Source: a virus
IMG/VR virus record: IMGVR_UViG_3300024520_000062
Location: 1 to 64,000 of that record
DNA length: 64,000 bases
Strand: one strand, 5' to 3'
Part shown: in pieces, positions 1,517 through 53,502 of the stretch
How the letters are laid out: each line of letters starts with the position of its first letter
Position numbering within the stretch: the stretch's first letter is position 1
The notes under the pieces: generated by a model
The model's input: only the letters and a program-made list of their open reading frames with translations
The model's database searches: none
Told to the model about the DNA's origin: nothing
Translations under genes and position numbers: made by a program

Positions 1517-1987
1517 ATGCCTCCGTTTAAGATCAACCTTCTCGGTGGCTTCAGCGGCAGTGCTATTTGGCTCGCCGCTCGAAACGCGGTGGACGGTGAC
1601 ACCGCAACCGAGGCGATGGCCGAGAAGATGGCTGAGAGGGTTCGTGCTTCGCTCATTCAGCCGGGACAGGGGCAGAAGTGGCCGAGTCTTCCCAATCGTT
1701 CCAGCGCACCCGGTGATCCTCCCGCCCGGCAGTATGGGCAGCTTCTCGAGGACATCGAGGTCTGGAAGGAAGGGAATTCGTGGCGGGTTGGGATCACCAC
1801 TGACGCGGAGTCAGCTGTGTACGGCGTCGTGCTGGAGTACGGCAACAGTCACATCGCACCGCGTCCGTTCCTGCGGCCTGTGATGCAGGAGTCCGAGAGC
1901 GCCATGTTGCGAGCGGCCGCTTCGGCTGTGACGGAATTATTGGCCACCCGGCAGGCCCTCGGTCTGATACGAGGGAATGACAGATGA
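1517..1987 (+). CDS. HK97 gp10-like neck/tail completion protein
   Basis: A 156-residue protein with an N-terminal helical region and a GVVLEYGNSHIAPRPFLRPV segment (about residues 103-122). The glycine-containing strand followed by APRPFLRP is the hallmark of the HK97 gp10 / minor tail component family that joins the neck to the tail tube. The genes on each side fit. Its end overlaps the next start (ATGA), so translation is probably coupled. Confidence 0.75.
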   Translation: MPPFKINLLGGFSGSAIWLAARNAVDGDTATEAMAEKMAERVRASLIQPGQGQKWPSLPNRSSAPGDPPARQYGQLLEDIEVWKEGNSWRVGITTDAESAVYGVVLEYGNSHIAPRPFLRPVMQESESAMLRAAASAVTELLATRQALGLIRGNDR

Positions 1988-4765: not shown

Positions 4766-7700
4766 ATGCCACCAATCCGTAAAGTAGGAACGCTGTTCGT
4801 TGATCTGGAGGCTCGGTCGAAGAAATTTGACGAGGCGATGCTGAAGGCGGGTGGTTCCGCCAAAAACCTCGCAGCCGTCATCCGTGCCCATCCGATCGCT
4901 GCTGCCGCTGCACTAGGCGCGGCATTCGCTTTGGTTGGAGCCAAGGCGGTCAAGATGGCGTCGGAGTTGGAGAACGCCTTTGGCGAGATCAGCACCCTCG
5001 TTAATACCGCTGAGGTGGACGTCGGTCAGCTGAAGAAAGAGATGCTGGAGTTGTTCGCAGCCATGCCGGTTGATGAACTCCAAGACATGAGTCGTGGTCT
5101 GTATCAGATCATCTCGGCTTCGATCCCGGCAGCGCAGTCCATCGACTTCCTCCGGGTGGCTACTGAGGCGGCGGTCGCCGGCCTGACCTCCGTCGAGGTG
5201 TCGGTGGACGGCCTGACCACGGTGGTTAATGCGTGGGCGCGCGACAACATCACGGCGACCGAGGTCGCCGATCAGATGTTTACGGCCGTGCGATTCGGTA
5301 AGACGACGTTCGATGAAATCGCCACCAGCGTTGGTCGTGTGGCCGGGCTCGCGGCGACGATGGGTATTTCGTTCAAAGACGTGTTGGCGAACGCCACGGC
5401 GTTGACACTTGGCGGTGTGGACATGGAACTGGCGATGCGCTCCATTCGCCAGACGTTGGCTAATGTCATTCGTCCGACGTCCGCACTCAAGACGCAGTTT
5501 CCTGAGATCGCCAAGACGTTCAATCGGACCAAGCTCGAGGCCGACGGCCTGACGAAGTTCATGGTCGATCTCGCCGAGGCGCTCAAGGATAACGAAGACG
5601 CGGCCGTGTTGATGTTCCAAGACGTCAATGCCCTGAACGCCGCACTCCAGTTGACGGGTCAGGACGGCAAGCGTGTGATTCGGCTGATGGGTGAGATGGA
5701 GAGATCCACTGGGGCGGCGGGCACTGCGTTCGCCAAGATGGAAGGCACGACCAAGAATCTGACTAAGCAGCTGAAGAATCAGTTTGGCGTCGTCATGATC
5801 TCTCTGGGTGAATCGATACTGCCGACCGTCAACAAGAGCCTGCAGGTGATGGTCAACCTGATGTCGCTTTTGAACGGCGAGGTCAGCCGGCTGCGGTTTG
5901 ACAACATCAACAATGAATTGCAGTTCATGACCAAGAACTTCGATTTGTTGAGCGAGGGCAAGCGGACAGGCGCCGTCAACGAGGCGATTGGGCGATCGAC
6001 CAACTTCGCACAGACGCGGCTTGAGTTCCTGCGTTCCATCAGCGAGATAGCGCGGCAGGGGTCCAAGGACGTCTTCGATCTCAACGACGTGCTGAAGAAC
6101 TTAGAGAATTCGGCCATCAAGGGCCAAGGTTTGTTCGATCCCGGGGGCGCGCTGTCTGGTACTATCGCGCGATCGCCGGGGCTGAAACTTCTGCCTTTCG
6201 GAATCGGAGAACGATTCCAGCGCGCCCCCGGGCAGAACATTCTGAACGAGATTCCCACCGAGCAATTGCTTGCGCTGGAGGCCGCGTTGGCCAAACTGGC
6301 GCAGACGGGTGAATTGACGGAAGACCAGATCCCGCGAGTCGCGGAAATACTCAAAGAGTTGGCGCTGGCTATCGGTGACGAGCGGCCTGAGGTGGAGGTG
6401 GAGGTCAAGATCAAGCCACTGGGTGATCAGGCGCGCATCGACTTCGGCCGGATCTTGTTGGGGCTACCGACCGATTCGGACATACAGAGAACCGTGAAGG
6501 CGTGGGAGGAGTTCACCACCACGGCAGGCATCAAGCTTCGTAGGAACATCGCCGAGAATCTTGGAGACTTTCAAGGCCTGCGCGACATCGCAGAAGAGAG
6601 TCTCACGAATGAGATGAACGCGGCTATCGCCGAGGCCCAAGCGAAGTTTGACGCTGGAGAGGACGGTGTCGGCGAAGGGTTTATGGAGGAAATCGAAAAA
6701 CTGTTCGAAGACCGTAGAATTTCACTGAAAATAAGATGGGCGGAAGAGGACGCCGCCAACTTGGCGCGTATCACCAAAGACATCAATACACAGATTGCTC
6801 GAAACATCGGTGACTTTGAGGGCCTGCGCGATATCGCGTTTGCCAGTATACGCACTGAACTGGAAGAGGCGTTTAAGAAACTGCCGCCGGAAATGCAGAA
6901 GTTCCTCGAGCCGATGATCGCCGCTGCCGAAGACGCGGAACTGTTCAAGAACCAGCGAGAGGACGCCGACAAATTGTTCCAACTTCAACGTGACTTGGCG
7001 GCATCGACCAAGACGTTGACTGACGATATGGAGTTGGACATCGAGGGTTTGGCTGAGACGTTCAGGCGCGACTTCGGCGAGGACATGCCGGACGATGCGC
7101 TAGAACTACTTGAGCGGATGCGCGAAATGCTGGAGATCCAGCACATCATTGAGGCGCTCGGTGAATCGTTTGAAGGGATGGGGGAAAAGGTAGAGGCGGC
7201 TCTACTGCGGCTGCAGTTCGGCTCCGCCGATCTCGCGATAGAGTTGTTGCCAGTGCTAGAGGCCATGCTTGTGAAGGCGCAGGCTAATCTGGAGGCGGCA
7301 GACGAGACGGTAGATAACTACGATGAACTGAAAACTATCGTTAACGACATCGTCACGTTGATAGGTAAACTTGGCACTGGTATCGCGACCGCCGGCGAGG
7401 AGGTCGGAGATACAACCAGCGATCTTGAAAAACAGCGCCGGTTGCTACAAGCCAATGCACGACAAATAGAGTCGATGGTGCGTGGTGCGTTGCAATTGGC
7501 TGAGGCGTTTGAGTTAGTCAGTGAAGCGGTGTCCGACATGGTGCAGGGATTCGCTCAAGCGTTCGCCAACGCTGGTGATCTGGCACTCCTGCTGGAGAAG
7601 GCCCGAGACGACGCAGGGAACCTGACGGGTGGACTGACTGGCAGCTTCACGCAAATACTGGGTGCGGCCTTGCCTGTGTTGGGTGGATTCGCACAGGCAC

Positions 7701-24891: not shown

Positions 24892-24965
24892 TGCTTTGTA
24901 GTTCAGTCTGGTTAGAACAACTGACTATAGATCAGTGGGTCGCGGGTTCGAATCCCGCCAAAGCG
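24892..24965 (+). tRNA. tRNA embedded in the giant ncRNA, anticodon reads AUA (Tyr?)
   Basis: The 74-base cloverleaf has acceptor TGCTTTG/CAAAGCG, D-arm GTTC/GAAC, anticodon stem ACTGA/TCAGT with loop CTATAGA, and T-arm GCGGG-TTCGAAT-CCCGC. Position 33 is T and 34-36 read ATA, formally tyrosine UAU, an unusual anticodon because A34 is normally replaced by G. The first pair is a T-G wobble and CCA is not encoded. It sits between the two halves of the ncRNA. Confidence 0.75.
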
Positions 24966-25289
24966 CCGACAGGCTAAAAACGGAAAGCCGGGTCCACCGT
25001 TCGCACGAAAATGGCTTAATGCTCTGGCCCCTCGGGGTAACAGAGCGACAATCACTCTCCCAAGGAGTGGATGTCTCAACGGCGAGTTGCACGGTTGGCT
25101 GCAACCATTCACTGTCCGATAGGGTAGACGGAATACGAATCGTTGAGTAGCGCGGACGGGATAGAGGCTCCGCCACCTCTCTAAAAAAGGCAGTCATGCG
25201 GTTGTACGTCATCGCTTTTAAGGGTGGCGTGGACAAAGGGGCAAGGCCGGTGGGGACATCGCGCCGTAATCCCAGCAAAGCAGTCGCGC

Positions 25290-27032: not shown

Positions 27033-27362
27033 ATGGTAGCACCGAAGAAGTTCAAGAAGAAGAGTCAGGTCCAAGTGGCTCGAGAAAAGATCGGCTGGAA
27101 TCAGACCCAGTTGGCCGAGTGGCTGGGCTGGAGTCAGACGATGGTGTCGTACCTCGAGACGGGACGCGCGCCGTCGCCACTGCAGCGCCGGCGCCTGCGT
27201 GCGTTCGAGACGTTGGTGCAGGCGGACATCCGGCTGGGCAAGAACAAACGTCAGCCGTGCCCGTGGTGGAATAAACACCTCAACCGTTCGGCGTTCGACG
27301 TGTTCGCACACCTCGAGAGTTGCCCGGCCTGCACGGCCTTCGTCGTGAAACTGACGCGATGA
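27033..27362 (+). CDS. XRE-family HTH regulator with zinc knuckle
   Basis: The 109-residue protein has a Cro/C1-type helix-turn-helix: QVAREKIGWNQTQLAEWLGW then SQTMVSYLETGRAPS (residues 12-46). The C-terminal segment HLESCPACTAFV (about 91-102) with an upstream PCPWW could bind zinc. Likely a transcriptional regulator or antirepressor of early genes. ATG 27033 follows GGGGTGGTGTAA; the end overlaps the next ATG. Confidence 0.75.
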   Translation: MVAPKKFKKKSQVQVAREKIGWNQTQLAEWLGWSQTMVSYLETGRAPSPLQRRRLRAFETLVQADIRLGKNKRQPCPWWNKHLNRSAFDVFAHLESCPACTAFVVKLTR

Positions 27363-46498: not shown

Positions 46499-46511
46499 CC
46501 AAAATTGGCCC

Positions 46512-46560
46512 TTGACAAGATATGCACTATTGATTAGGTTGGTTGCAGATGGTTACTGAC
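46512..46560 (+). promoter_or_regulatory. promoter plus leader box
   Basis: TTGACA (46512-46517), 17 bases, TAGGTT (46535-46540), then GGTTACTGAC (46551-46560). Nearly identical over about 50 bases to the promoter at 47299. Confidence 0.85.
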
Positions 46561-46583
46561 TCACTGTAGCAAAGGGGAACACA

Positions 46584-47289: not shown

Positions 47290-47298
47290 AGAGAACAC

Positions 47299-47347
47299 TT
47301 GACAAGATATGCACTATTGATTAGGTTGGTTGCAGATGGTTACTGAC
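47299..47347 (+). promoter_or_regulatory. promoter plus leader box
   Basis: TTGACA (47299-47304), 17 bases, TAGGTT (47322-47327), then GGTTACTGAC (47338-47347). Confidence 0.85.
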
Positions 47348-47372
47348 TCACAACAAAGTAAAGGGGGCAAGA

Positions 47373-49631: not shown

Positions 49632-49851
49632 TCGAGAAATGACCGAGGCGGAGTTCGAGGCACTGAAACGCAAGTGCTTCAATCTGGGGATGCAGGTCGG
49701 CGAGAGTGAGGGCCTACTGCAGGCGAGCATGATTGTCAGTGAGGTGCTGACTGAGCAGGTCGGCGGGCTGGGCGGCGGACGCCTCGCCACTGAGGTGGCC
49801 CGCCGGATACAGGAGCGGAGTCAGGCGGTGCAGACGCTGACGATGCTCTGA
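49624..49851 (+). CDS. small helical hypothetical protein
   Basis: A 75-residue protein (MADREMTEAEFEALKRKCFN) with two amphipathic helices. No family recognised. Last gene before the long regulatory gap. Confidence 0.55.
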   Translation: MADREMTEAEFEALKRKCFNLGMQVGESEGLLQASMIVSEVLTEQVGGLGGGRLATEVARRIQERSQAVQTLTML

Positions 49852-49868
49852 GGATCGCGTGTAACGAA

Positions 49869-49977
49869 CGATCGCGCGATCGCGCGACTCGATGGTTGCC
49901 GGCGTTGTTCGTGTCGAGTTAAAGGCGACCTCGAGTTAAAGGCGAGTTAAACCCATCCGAGTTAAACCCGAGTCAAA
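49869..49977. repeat. CG-palindrome and GAGTYAAA repeat cluster
   Basis: A 14-base palindrome CGATCGCGCGATCG (49869-49882) is followed by five GAGTTAAA/GAGTCAAA elements at 49916, 49933, 49944, 49959 and 49970. The same pair (GAGTTAAA then GAGTCAAAGTCCTG) occurs in the gap at 45840-45866. Confidence 0.6.
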
Positions 49978-49981
49978 GTCC

Positions 49982-50249
49982 TGTGGCGTTCCCACCACAC
50001 TTTTATGTTGCGCCGACGCCACGGCAAAACGCGAGGGTGTCGCGCCGCCGCCACGGTATTTTGCGAAGTTGTTGCGTGAGCACCACATATGGCGTCGATG
50101 CAACATTGTCGCATTCTGCCGTGGCGCTCGAGCCACACTTTCGCATTTCGCCGTGGGATCGACGCCACACCGATGTTGCGTCGGCGCTACGTTGCGTCTC
50201 CGCCACATAGCCCTGTGGTTTCGACGCTACATGTGGTGCCGGCGCGGCA
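49982..50249. promoter_or_regulatory. array of twelve 18-bp dyads (TGTNGC-N6-GCNACA)
   Basis: Copies start at 49982, 50006, 50038, 50070, 50088, 50107 (weak), 50120, 50152, 50174, 50190, 50214 and 50232. TGTGGTTTCGACGCTACA is the cleanest. Centre spacing is 32 bases for several consecutive copies, about three helical turns, so bound dimers would face the same side. The layout matches tandem operator or enhancer sites for a dimeric protein; an iteron origin is the alternative. Confidence 0.8.
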
Positions 50250-50280
50250 CTTTCCCTGCACAAGATTCGTGCCACATCTA

Positions 50281-50295
50281 TGGCACATACCTTGC
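50281..50295 (+). promoter_or_regulatory. sigma-54-type promoter 1
   Basis: TGGCACATACCTTGC matches the TGGCAC-N5-TTGC consensus of RpoN promoters, with GG and GC ten bases apart. It lies 32 bases downstream of the last dyad. A weaker candidate CGGCACTTTCCCTGC is at 50245-50259. Confidence 0.65.
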
Positions 50296-50339
50296 AATAG
50301 CCAGAGCAAGTTCTATGCCATAGTTAAGATATGCATAGT

Positions 50340-50354
50340 TGGCACGCCTCTTGC
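50340..50354 (+). promoter_or_regulatory. sigma-54-type promoter 2
   Basis: TGGCACGCCTCTTGC is a full match to the -24/-12 consensus, preceded by T and followed by T as preferred. It points toward the ArdC-like island. Confidence 0.7.
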
Positions 50355-50375
50355 TTCGCGCGTTCATTATATACA

Positions 50376-50410
50376 GCAGGCGCCAGCCGGCGCCAGCAGG
50401 CGCCAGCCGG
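50376..50410. repeat. short GC direct repeat
   Basis: A 20-base unit (GCAGGCGCCAGCCGGCGCCA) is followed by 15 bases of a second copy. It sits just after the second sigma-54-type promoter and marks the start of GGCGCC-rich DNA. Confidence 0.7.
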
Positions 50411-50838
50411 AAACCGCCTAGGCAATGGCTTTGCGGCTGGTATACCCCTAGAACGCCCGAGGTTGCCGTCTAACGGATGTTTATGTCCTACCCATACTAG
50501 TACACCAACCTCCTGCCGTTCGGACAAGTCGTTACAGGGCAATGACTTACAAGGCCGTATTTTCGGGACATAGTATATTTGTGACCCATAACCCGAAATA
50601 GCCTATACCTAGGCCTTGAAACTCAGGTATTGCGTTATCAGCCATGGATAGTTAACTTATTCCCTCACAGAATAGGCCCGGTCCCATGGTGGTGAAACAC
50701 CGACAGCCGCGCCGCTTGAAACGCCCCCCGACTCTCCGCCTCACTCGAGGCAATGTTTCATCCTTCGTTCATTATATGCCGGCGCCGCTTGCCGGCTGTG
50801 CCCTAGCGTTAGCCGCTAAGGCGAAAGGCTACTGACCT
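50411..50838. other. leader region without genes
   Basis: About 430 bases with no credible frame. It contains an inverted repeat TTTCGGG (50561) / CCCGAAA (50592), a second copy of CGTTCATTATAT at 50766-50777 (first at 50361-50372), and the leader box variant GGCTACTGAC (50827-50836) just before ATG 50839. Likely an untranslated leader or additional promoter region. Confidence 0.5.
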
Positions 50839-51102
50839 ATGACTGACTACGACAGCAACGGCGCTCCCGAGTATTGCTACCCTGACGGTACCGGCGCGCC
50901 GCTCGATTACTTCGGCCAGCGAAACGACTTCACGCTGATGCCGGCAGAACGGGACCACCCATGCTACGCGCTGACGGTTGGACCGCGCGGTACCATAGAA
51001 ACAATGGATTGGGAAACGCGCGGCACTGGCTCGCAAGCAATGCTTTCTCTTATCGGCTCCCTGATGCGCAACGGCACTATCCCAAACGGCTGGGACTTCT
51101 AA
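50839..51102 (+). CDS. small hypothetical protein
   Basis: An 87-residue acidic protein (MTDYDSNGAPEYCYPDGTGA) with TLMPAERDHPCYALTVGPRG. No family recognised. Start ATG 50839 lies two bases after the leader box. First gene of the sigma-54-linked island. Confidence 0.55.
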   Translation: MTDYDSNGAPEYCYPDGTGAPLDYFGQRNDFTLMPAERDHPCYALTVGPRGTIETMDWETRGTGSQAMLSLIGSLMRNGTIPNGWDF

Positions 51103-51128: not shown

Positions 51129-52013
51129 ATGGCTACTGTTTACGAGATCATCACCGACAGAATTATTGCAGCAATCGAGACTGACGGCACGCTACCATGG
51201 CACAAGCCATGGCGCGCCGGCACAGCGGCGCCGGCCAACTTGAAAAGCGGCAAGGCGTACCGAGGGATAAACGTCTTCCTGCTGGGAATGCTTGGCTACT
51301 CCTCGCCTTACTTCGTTTCCTACAAGCAAGCGAAGACGTTAGGCGGTCAGGTTCGGAAAGGCGAGAAAGGTTCGCCCGTTGTCTTCTGGCTGTGGCCCGA
51401 TGAAAAGAAAAAGGCCGCAGCAGCCGCAAAGGGAAAGCAGGCCTTCCCCATTATGCGCTACTACACAGTGTTCAATGTCAGCCAGTGCGACGGCATAAGC
51501 CACAAGCGGCTGACGGAATGGCAAGCGGCTGAAGATGCTGCAGCCGGTCAGACCCATGATGCCATCGAATCAGCAGCCGCAATAGCAGCCGGCTGGGAAG
51601 ACGGCTGCAAAGTAGAACATGGCAAGAGTCAGGCGTATTACTCGCCATCGGCTGACGCTATCGGAATGCCGAACCTTGACGCATTCGAAACGGCGCCGGC
51701 GTACTATTGCACGCTCTTCCATGAGATGGTACACGCTACCGGCCACAGCAGCCGGCTTGACAGGTTCCCAGCCGACAGCGGCGCACAGCCGTTCGGGTCG
51801 GAATCATATTCGCAGGAAGAATTGACTGCAGAGATGGGCGCCAGTTTCCTAGCAGCAGAAGGCGGCTTGCCGCTTGATAGCTTCATCGATCAGTCAGCCG
51901 CCTACGTAGCCAACTGGCTGCAACGGTTGAAAGGCGACAGCAAGTTGGTAGTAACAGCAGCGGCGCGCGCACAGAAGGCCGCTGATCTCGTACTGGGTCG
52001 CACGTTTGAATAA
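51129..52013 (+). CDS. ArdC-like antirestriction protein
   Basis: The 294-residue protein has the ArdC two-part layout: an N-terminal ssDNA-binding domain (YEIITDRIIAAIETDGTLPW, then PWRAGTAAP and YRGINVFLLGM) and a metallopeptidase domain with HEMVH (198-202), a nearby His206 and a glutamate helix QEELTAEMGASF. ArdC proteins travel on plasmids and phages and protect incoming DNA from restriction. ATG 51129 is preceded by GAGGGCG. It is the only island gene with a confident function. Confidence 0.85.
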   Translation: MATVYEIITDRIIAAIETDGTLPWHKPWRAGTAAPANLKSGKAYRGINVFLLGMLGYSSPYFVSYKQAKTLGGQVRKGEKGSPVVFWLWPDEKKKAAAAAKGKQAFPIMRYYTVFNVSQCDGISHKRLTEWQAAEDAAAGQTHDAIESAAAIAAGWEDGCKVEHGKSQAYYSPSADAIGMPNLDAFETAPAYYCTLFHEMVHATGHSSRLDRFPADSGAQPFGSESYSQEELTAEMGASFLAAEGGLPLDSFIDQSAAYVANWLQRLKGDSKLVVTAAARAQKAADLVLGRTFE

Positions 52014-52196: not shown

Positions 52197-52433
52197 ATGT
52201 TTTCAATCGCCCTGACTCTCGCTGCTGCTGCTTTCTTCCACATGCTTCGGACTGTCATCGTGCTGGCTGATGACCGGCGCATCGCGCGAGCCGCGCGCCC
52301 TGCTGGCCGTTGCCTGACTCGCGCCGTCCGTCCCGCTGGCAGGATTAGCCGGCGCGCCGTTTCTAGCCTGACCGGTACCTTTCATACGGTCGAGCCGTTC
52401 AAGCCATTCGCACGACCGCTGCAGTCGTTCTAA
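52197..52433 (+). CDS. small membrane-associated basic protein
   Basis: A 78-residue protein with an N-terminal hydrophobic segment (FSIALTLAAAAFFHMLRTVI) and an Arg/Pro-rich remainder with two RAVRPAGR-type repeats. A leader box variant (GGTTACTTGAC, 52184-52194) precedes ATG 52197. No family recognised. Confidence 0.5.
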   Translation: MFSIALTLAAAAFFHMLRTVIVLADDRRIARAARPAGRCLTRAVRPAGRISRRAVSSLTGTFHTVEPFKPFARPLQSF

Positions 52434-53134
52434 TGTCAAACGACAACAGCGTGATTGCATACGAGGGCGTCAGCCGGATTAACGGCGCGCCCATTGTCGT
52501 CATCATATCCGGCATACTCGAGCCATCGAGCAACGGCAAAACTGGCGACATGCTACAGGCGTATATCCTACGGTCCGATATACCGCCCCTCGAGGCGCTC
52601 GAGACTGGGAAAGATTCCGCCATTTGTGGTGGCTGTCCCTTTCGCAAGGCGCTGCGTGGTGGTTGTTATGTGAACGTAGGACAGGCGCCGCGCGGCATTT
52701 GGGAATGCTACAAGAACGGCGCCGGCTACGAGTATTGCACTGACCCGGCTTCTCTCTTCCGGCGTACTGATCGCATCAGGCTAGGCGCCTACGGTGACCC
52801 GGTAGCGGCGCCGCTCGAGATGTGGCAATCTCTCGTCAGTCATTCCGCTGGCTGGACTGGGTACACACATCAGTGGCGCGCGAAGATGGCGCGCGGCTTC
52901 TCTTCCATCCTGCAGGCATCGTGTGACAGTATAGCCGATCAGGAAGAGGCAACCGCGCGCGGCTGGGGAACCTTTCGAGTCTCCGCCTTAGGCGATCGCG
53001 ACACAGTGCCCGGGGAATTCTACTGCCCAGCGCCGGCCATCGATTGCCGGGATTGCCTCCGTTGCGACGGCGCCAGCGGCGCGGCCGTACTGATAGAGGC
53101 ACATGGCAGCGGCGCCGGCAAGGTGGCGCCATGA
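52433..53134 (+). CDS. Cys-rich phage protein, DUF7227-like
   Basis: The 233-residue protein has SAICGGCPFRKALRGGCYVN, then GQAPRGIWECY, RLGAYGDPVAAP, WTGYTHQW and a C-terminal CPAPAIDCRDCLRCDG cluster. This order of Cys motifs with GAYGDP and WTGYTHQW recurs in a phage protein family of unknown function that I associate with DUF7227. An iron-sulfur or zinc protein is likely. One-base overlap with the previous gene; ATGA overlap downstream. Confidence 0.65.
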   Translation: MSNDNSVIAYEGVSRINGAPIVVIISGILEPSSNGKTGDMLQAYILRSDIPPLEALETGKDSAICGGCPFRKALRGGCYVNVGQAPRGIWECYKNGAGYEYCTDPASLFRRTDRIRLGAYGDPVAAPLEMWQSLVSHSAGWTGYTHQWRAKMARGFSSILQASCDSIADQEEATARGWGTFRVSALGDRDTVPGEFYCPAPAIDCRDCLRCDGASGAAVLIEAHGSGAGKVAP

Positions 53135-53464: not shown

Positions 53465-53502
53465 TGGCACGCCCCTTGCATGCTACAGCAAGGGGCGTGC
53501 CA
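53465..53502. promoter_or_regulatory. palindrome of two opposed sigma-54-type sites
   Basis: TGGCACGCCCCTTGC (53465-53479) is followed after 8 bases by its exact inverted complement (53488-53502). Each arm is a full -24/-12 consensus, one for each strand. Read as RNA it is a 15-bp hairpin, but no T-run follows directly. Confidence 0.7.

Follow-up and report, generated by a model that had tools for sequence, protein, structure and literature searches.

A dyad array next to sigma-54-type promoter sites in a phage genome: candidate enhancers for a host activator

The window analyzed here is a stretch of 64,000 nucleotides (positions 1 to 64,000) of the viral record IMGVR_UViG_3300024520_000062. 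The element in question is an array of short dyads which, together with promoter-like sites of the sigma-54 type, occupies a 987-bp intergenic gap (49852-50838) in front of a small gene group with an ArdC-type antirestriction gene, termed the ArdC island below. Based on sequence comparisons, the dyads are probably enhancers for a sigma-54 activator, and the sites at 50281 and 50340 sigma-54 promoters of the ArdC island. Specifically, the array would be occupied by a host ATPase of the sigma-54 activator kind. By looping, this activator would reach host RNA polymerase and sigma-54 in their closed complex and open that complex at the expense of ATP, whereupon the island would be transcribed from the promoters at 50281 and 50340. 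The ArdC island would then be expressed only while the host activator is active. Promoter use, a host rpoN, the activator's identity and signal, and the biological benefit are what we infer.

Eleven 18-bp units of the form YGTBGC-N6-GCVACR, with no strand assigned, were located at 49982-50249 (starts at 49982, 50006, 50038, 50070, 50088, 50120, 50152, 50174, 50190, 50214, and 50232), and their symmetrised half-site consensus is T-G-T-G-G-C-G. A preliminary description of the region had reported twelve dyads of the stricter form TGTNGC-N6-GCNACA. The array and its dyads were confirmed, while the number had to be corrected to eleven and the strict form given up, every copy departing from it at one or two positions. 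Within 270 bp, nine dyads scored at least 11/12 and eleven at least 10/12, compared to maxima of two and five in 25 simulated first-order Markov sequences of 64 kb each. With nine dyads against a simulated maximum of two at the higher threshold, the array is far beyond chance. A scan of the rest of the genome found no second cluster. The 32-base spacing described earlier applies to four of the ten intervals (50006-50038-50070 and 50088-50120-50152); the remaining ones measure 16, 18, 22, and 24 bp, and helical phasing is therefore only partial. The 14-bp spacers between the 32-bp units are alike and mirrored across the array, which contains a large imperfect inverted repeat. The dyads that make up the glnA enhancer of E. 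coli, bound by NtrC, are likewise 32 bp apart and lie upstream of a sigma-54 promoter. That enhancer differs from the window array in its dyad sequence, its two strong sites, and its chromosomal location. Separately, between 40502 and 49977 the plus strand carries nine copies of GAGTTAAA and the minus strand none, and GAGTCAAA is found four additional times on the plus strand of the same span; five of these copies (49916-49977) directly precede the dyads.

The two TGGCAC-N5-TTGC sites named in the preliminary description, at 50281 and 50340, were both found again, and further sites exist. The exact motif occurs four times in the whole record (67,188 bp), every time in the island: at 50281, 50340, and 53465 on the plus strand and at 53488 on the minus strand. 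The sequence TGGCACATACCTTGC (50281-50295, plus strand) forms a −24/−12 element of the sigma-54 type 31 bp past the last dyad. At 90 bp past it, TGGCACGCCTCTTGC (50340-50354, plus strand), followed by T, fits the sigma-54 consensus TGGCACG-N4-TTGCW, as do the flanks of the site at 53465. We propose the 50340 site as the main promoter of the ArdC island. The −24 TGGCAC and −12 TTGC elements thus stand at the invariant spacing of a sigma-54-dependent promoter, with the putative activator sites upstream. Two sites with one mismatch each lie on the minus strand: the weak site TGGCACGAATCTTGT (50260-50274), which points into the array and is identical at 14 of 15 positions to 1831-1845 (minus strand) of another phage contig, L109, and TGGCATAGAACTTGC (50306-50320), which faces the 50281 site as an inverted pair with the −12 ends 10 bp apart. 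From the array to the ArdC gene, a crude scan of the plus strand found no sigma-70-like promoter. Ordinarily, transcription from phage promoters depends on the housekeeping sigma factor, on phage sigma factors, or on phage polymerases. A direct repeat, GTTCATTATAT(A/G)C, is present at 50362-50374, just past the 50340 site, and again at 50767-50779, before the first island gene.

The query of a first scan of viral contigs consisted of dyads alone, three of them spaced 32 bp apart. This dyad-only scan matched a near-identical contig of the window phage and three others (L107, L108, and L109), the arrays of which repeat every 16 bp exactly, or half of 32. When the 16-bp pattern itself served as the query, L113, which belongs with L107 and L109, was found in addition, as were L112 and the simple tandem repeats treated further below. 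In both phage groups found through their dyads, TGGCACG-N4-TTGC was clustered near the array. In L108, with about nine dyads, the exact TGGCAC-N5-TTGC motif occurs five times on the minus strand (6777-7497) and once more at 4792, and L109 and L113 carry two copies each within ~650 bp of the array; no further exact site is present in any of these three records. The background rate was taken from unrelated phage loci, namely those of relatives of an island protein (phrog_2554), which are poor in sigma-54 sites (6 exact sites in 765,112 bases). The Poisson probability of the observed clustering was 1.4e-4 for L109 and 1.1e-11 for L108, the latter value overstating independence as the copies may be tandem duplications. 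The gene that starts ~60 bp past one of the L108 sites has a good ribosome site. L108 and L113 have a common protein downstream of the promoters (50% identity over 106 residues) and are therefore distantly related; the window phage has no clear copy of it. The first gene past the sigma-54-like sites in both groups (L108:6093-6716 and L113:7033-7563, both minus strand) encodes an alanine/lysine-rich protein with a conserved GQQSMNLRN motif and no family match.

The portal protein of L108 was closest to those of the Myxococcus phages Mx8 and Mx9 (~40–42%); this hints, for L108 alone, at a host group rich in sigma-54. No such sites were found in Mx8 and Mx9 in the 50 kb of 53.5 kb examined, nor sigma-54 sites in the partial records of two terminase relatives of L113 (L145 and L146). 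When a sigma-54 site was combined in one query with two dyads 30–60 bp upstream of it, two further phages matched, L129 and L130, with three consensus dyads each and with exact sigma-54 sites confined to the dyad locus of each record. L130, a tailed phage as judged from its terminase and portal, shows a textbook layout in the order dyad, dyad, TGGCACGTTTCTTGC, dyad, TGGCACGGGACTTGC, GGAG, ATG. At least four other viruses, unrelated or distantly related, thus have the same arrangement of dyads and promoter-like sites.

The preliminary description had noted that no activator gene was visible, and indeed no PF00158 domain was detected in the genome of the window phage or in the other array phages, some of whose records are fragments. 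Since the array phages encode no activator, the sites are probably driven by one from the host. The same absence, together with dyad numbers beyond normal activator need (eleven here and about nine in L108), would also suit an array that acts mainly as a decoy, soaking up the host activator and altering host expression, with the phage promoters secondary. Such a main function seems highly improbable to us: promoter sites adjoin the array in every accepted phage, and the dyads of L129 and L130 are too few for a useful sponge. A decoy role can, in any case, coexist with a promoter role.

The dyad-plus-promoter layout is also found in bacteria. Among ~85,000 bacterial and archaeal genomes, searched for sigma-54 sites preceded by two dyads at a distance of 42–72 bp, 13 contigs matched; fewer than one match is expected by a uniform-base estimate, although base composition could raise that several-fold. 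Most of the matches are intergenic, and two within coding sequence (L123 and L124) look like chance matches. In at least six loci (L116, L121, L122, L126, L127, and L128) the layout directly follows a gene for a sigma-54 activator. The Pfam domains Sigma54_activat and HTH_8 (a Fis-type helix-turn-helix) were confirmed in five of the six adjoining activators, and the L116 activator was recognized through its C-terminal helix. The genes downstream in the bacterial loci are metabolic (3-hydroxyacyl-CoA dehydrogenase, CoA transferase, iron-molybdenum cofactor proteins), and another set looks like tricarboxylate transport. A search with the single-dyad pattern gave two matches in 291 Clostridia genomes versus none in the control.

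Fifteen activator groups are described to bind TGT/ACA inverted repeats 10–12 bp apart, and one activator, AhcR, controls atoE-hbd-cotX (PMC6615313), to which L121 and L126 may correspond. These Clostridiales TGT-N10-12-ACA sites share with the window the promoter element, the dyad form, and several dyads upstream of the promoter; similarly, AdhR has three upstream sites (PMC7017808). In contrast to both, the sites here are in phages without an activator gene, number eleven rather than two to three, and precede phage genes rather than genes of host metabolism. Papers on sigma-54 regulons did not contain the exact dyad sequences in their text. The enhancer role, put forward as an inference in the preliminary description, is independently supported by arrays found through their dyads alone that have promoter clusters, by bacterial loci next to activator genes, and by published TGT...ACA sites.

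Two other explanations of the dyads were weighed against these data, and both are weaker than the enhancer reading. The array might be a replication origin of the iteron type, recognized by an initiator of the phage, with the TGGCAC-N5-TTGC sites as origin parts or coincidence. Its large imperfect inverted repeat and the four to five adjoining GAGTTAAA-like direct repeats would suit an origin, and origins of the lambda type likewise consist of tandem 18–19-bp dyads. The array thus resembles the lambda origin as a cluster of ~18-bp dyads. The lambda iterons, however, sit inside the initiator gene, whereas no initiator gene was recognized here in family scans of the phage proteins, which unfamiliar initiators could escape, and sigma-54-type sites recur beside the arrays. 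An origin predicts neither these sites next to the arrays of other phages nor dyads upstream of bacterial metabolic operons. Furthermore, no match to a DnaA box or to the consensus of integration host factor was found in 49850-50850, and the small number of consensus dyads in L129 and L130 does not favor an origin either. Altogether we regard an origin as unlikely.

Alternatively, a phage repressor could use the dyads as operators and thereby silence the promoters of the island. Dyads of such size are bound by repressors, and the window phage encodes one XRE-type protein (27033-27362). Its gene lies 23 kb off with no dyad cluster near it, none of the other array phages showed a homologue of the protein (several of these records are fragments), and the bacterial dyads adjoin genes for activators, not repressors. 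Operators of this kind are, in our judgement, less likely still than an origin.

Several observations weigh against the dyads as enhancers of sigma-54 promoters. The window dyads all depart somewhat from the best bacterial consensus, their spacing is irregular, and there are eleven of them instead of the two or three usual for activators. The first open reading frame of the island begins ~470 bp past the 50340 site, and a promoter role leaves the perfect inverted repeat at 53465 unexplained. As to other viruses, L112 carries dyads and no sigma-54 site, and four contigs with 16-bp CCACGTGG repeats (L110, L111, L114, and L115) were set aside as simple tandem repeats without promoter sites. In bacteria, the single-dyad pattern matched 19 of 193 Polyangia genomes versus 7 control matches, a weak test in which several of the 19 seem to be one conserved locus.

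On balance, we lean towards a wider reading of the enhancer arrays as a recurrent class of phage control region, acquired independently by several phage groups. Here an array of enhancers responding to a host sigma-54 activator, with no activator of the phage's own, would gate early or accessory genes, including the antirestriction island, by a physiological signal of the host. If true, infection programmes can read the nutritional or stress state of the host via the sigma-54 system, and the dyad-plus-promoter signature could serve to detect phages of this kind and to predict hosts carrying rpoN. No phage of this type was found described in the open-access literature.

The ArdC island begins with an open reading frame of 87 amino acids without family match (50839-51102). 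It is followed by the ArdC-type antirestriction protein (51129-52013; domains ArdcN and MPTase-PolyVal, phrog_7245), a 78-amino-acid open reading frame without family match (52197-52433), and a 233-amino-acid protein of phrog_2554, a family with no assigned function (52433-53134), all on the plus strand. Between 50380 and 53460, GGCGCC occurs 6.8 times per kb compared to 0.8 to the left, GATC 1.95 compared to 7.0 times per kb, and GCGCGC is likewise strongly enriched. This composition, together with the failure of a codon model trained on the phage to detect the 233-amino-acid gene, suggests that the island was acquired recently. In relatives that carry phrog_2554 genes, ArdC was not found near them.

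At the right edge of the island, two TGGCACGCCCCTTGC sites separated by 8 bp form a perfect inverted repeat with 15-bp arms (53465-53502, no strand assigned), on which the preliminary description was silent. Its arms are the exact TGGCAC-N5-TTGC sites at 53465 and 53488, and it would form a very stable hairpin if transcribed (z −4.6). It was found in no viral contig besides the near-identical one. A terminator, paired promoters, or a recombination site are possible functions. A loxP-like site, considered on account of the 8-bp spacer, was rejected, as neither such an integrase or recombinase among the scanned proteins nor a second identical site was found. A second hairpin and a T run come after the repeat.

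The ends of the record overlap by 148 bp (98%), and the near-identical contig G001 crosses the end junction; the phage genome, of ~67,040 bp, is therefore essentially complete and either circular or circularly permuted. A comparison of the region's DNA with known phages and plasmids gave no similarity match, and neither did the primase as a query against the viral contigs. The terminase relatives are at most ~53% identical, and the history of the array is thus not readable from any close relative. Nearly all genes lie on the plus strand. An exact direct repeat of 54 bp is present at 46511-46564 and 47298-47351. A tRNA-Tyr with the unusual anticodon ATA (24892-24967) lies inside a 1.2-kb gap between gene blocks, and five more tRNAs are located at 58413-59553.
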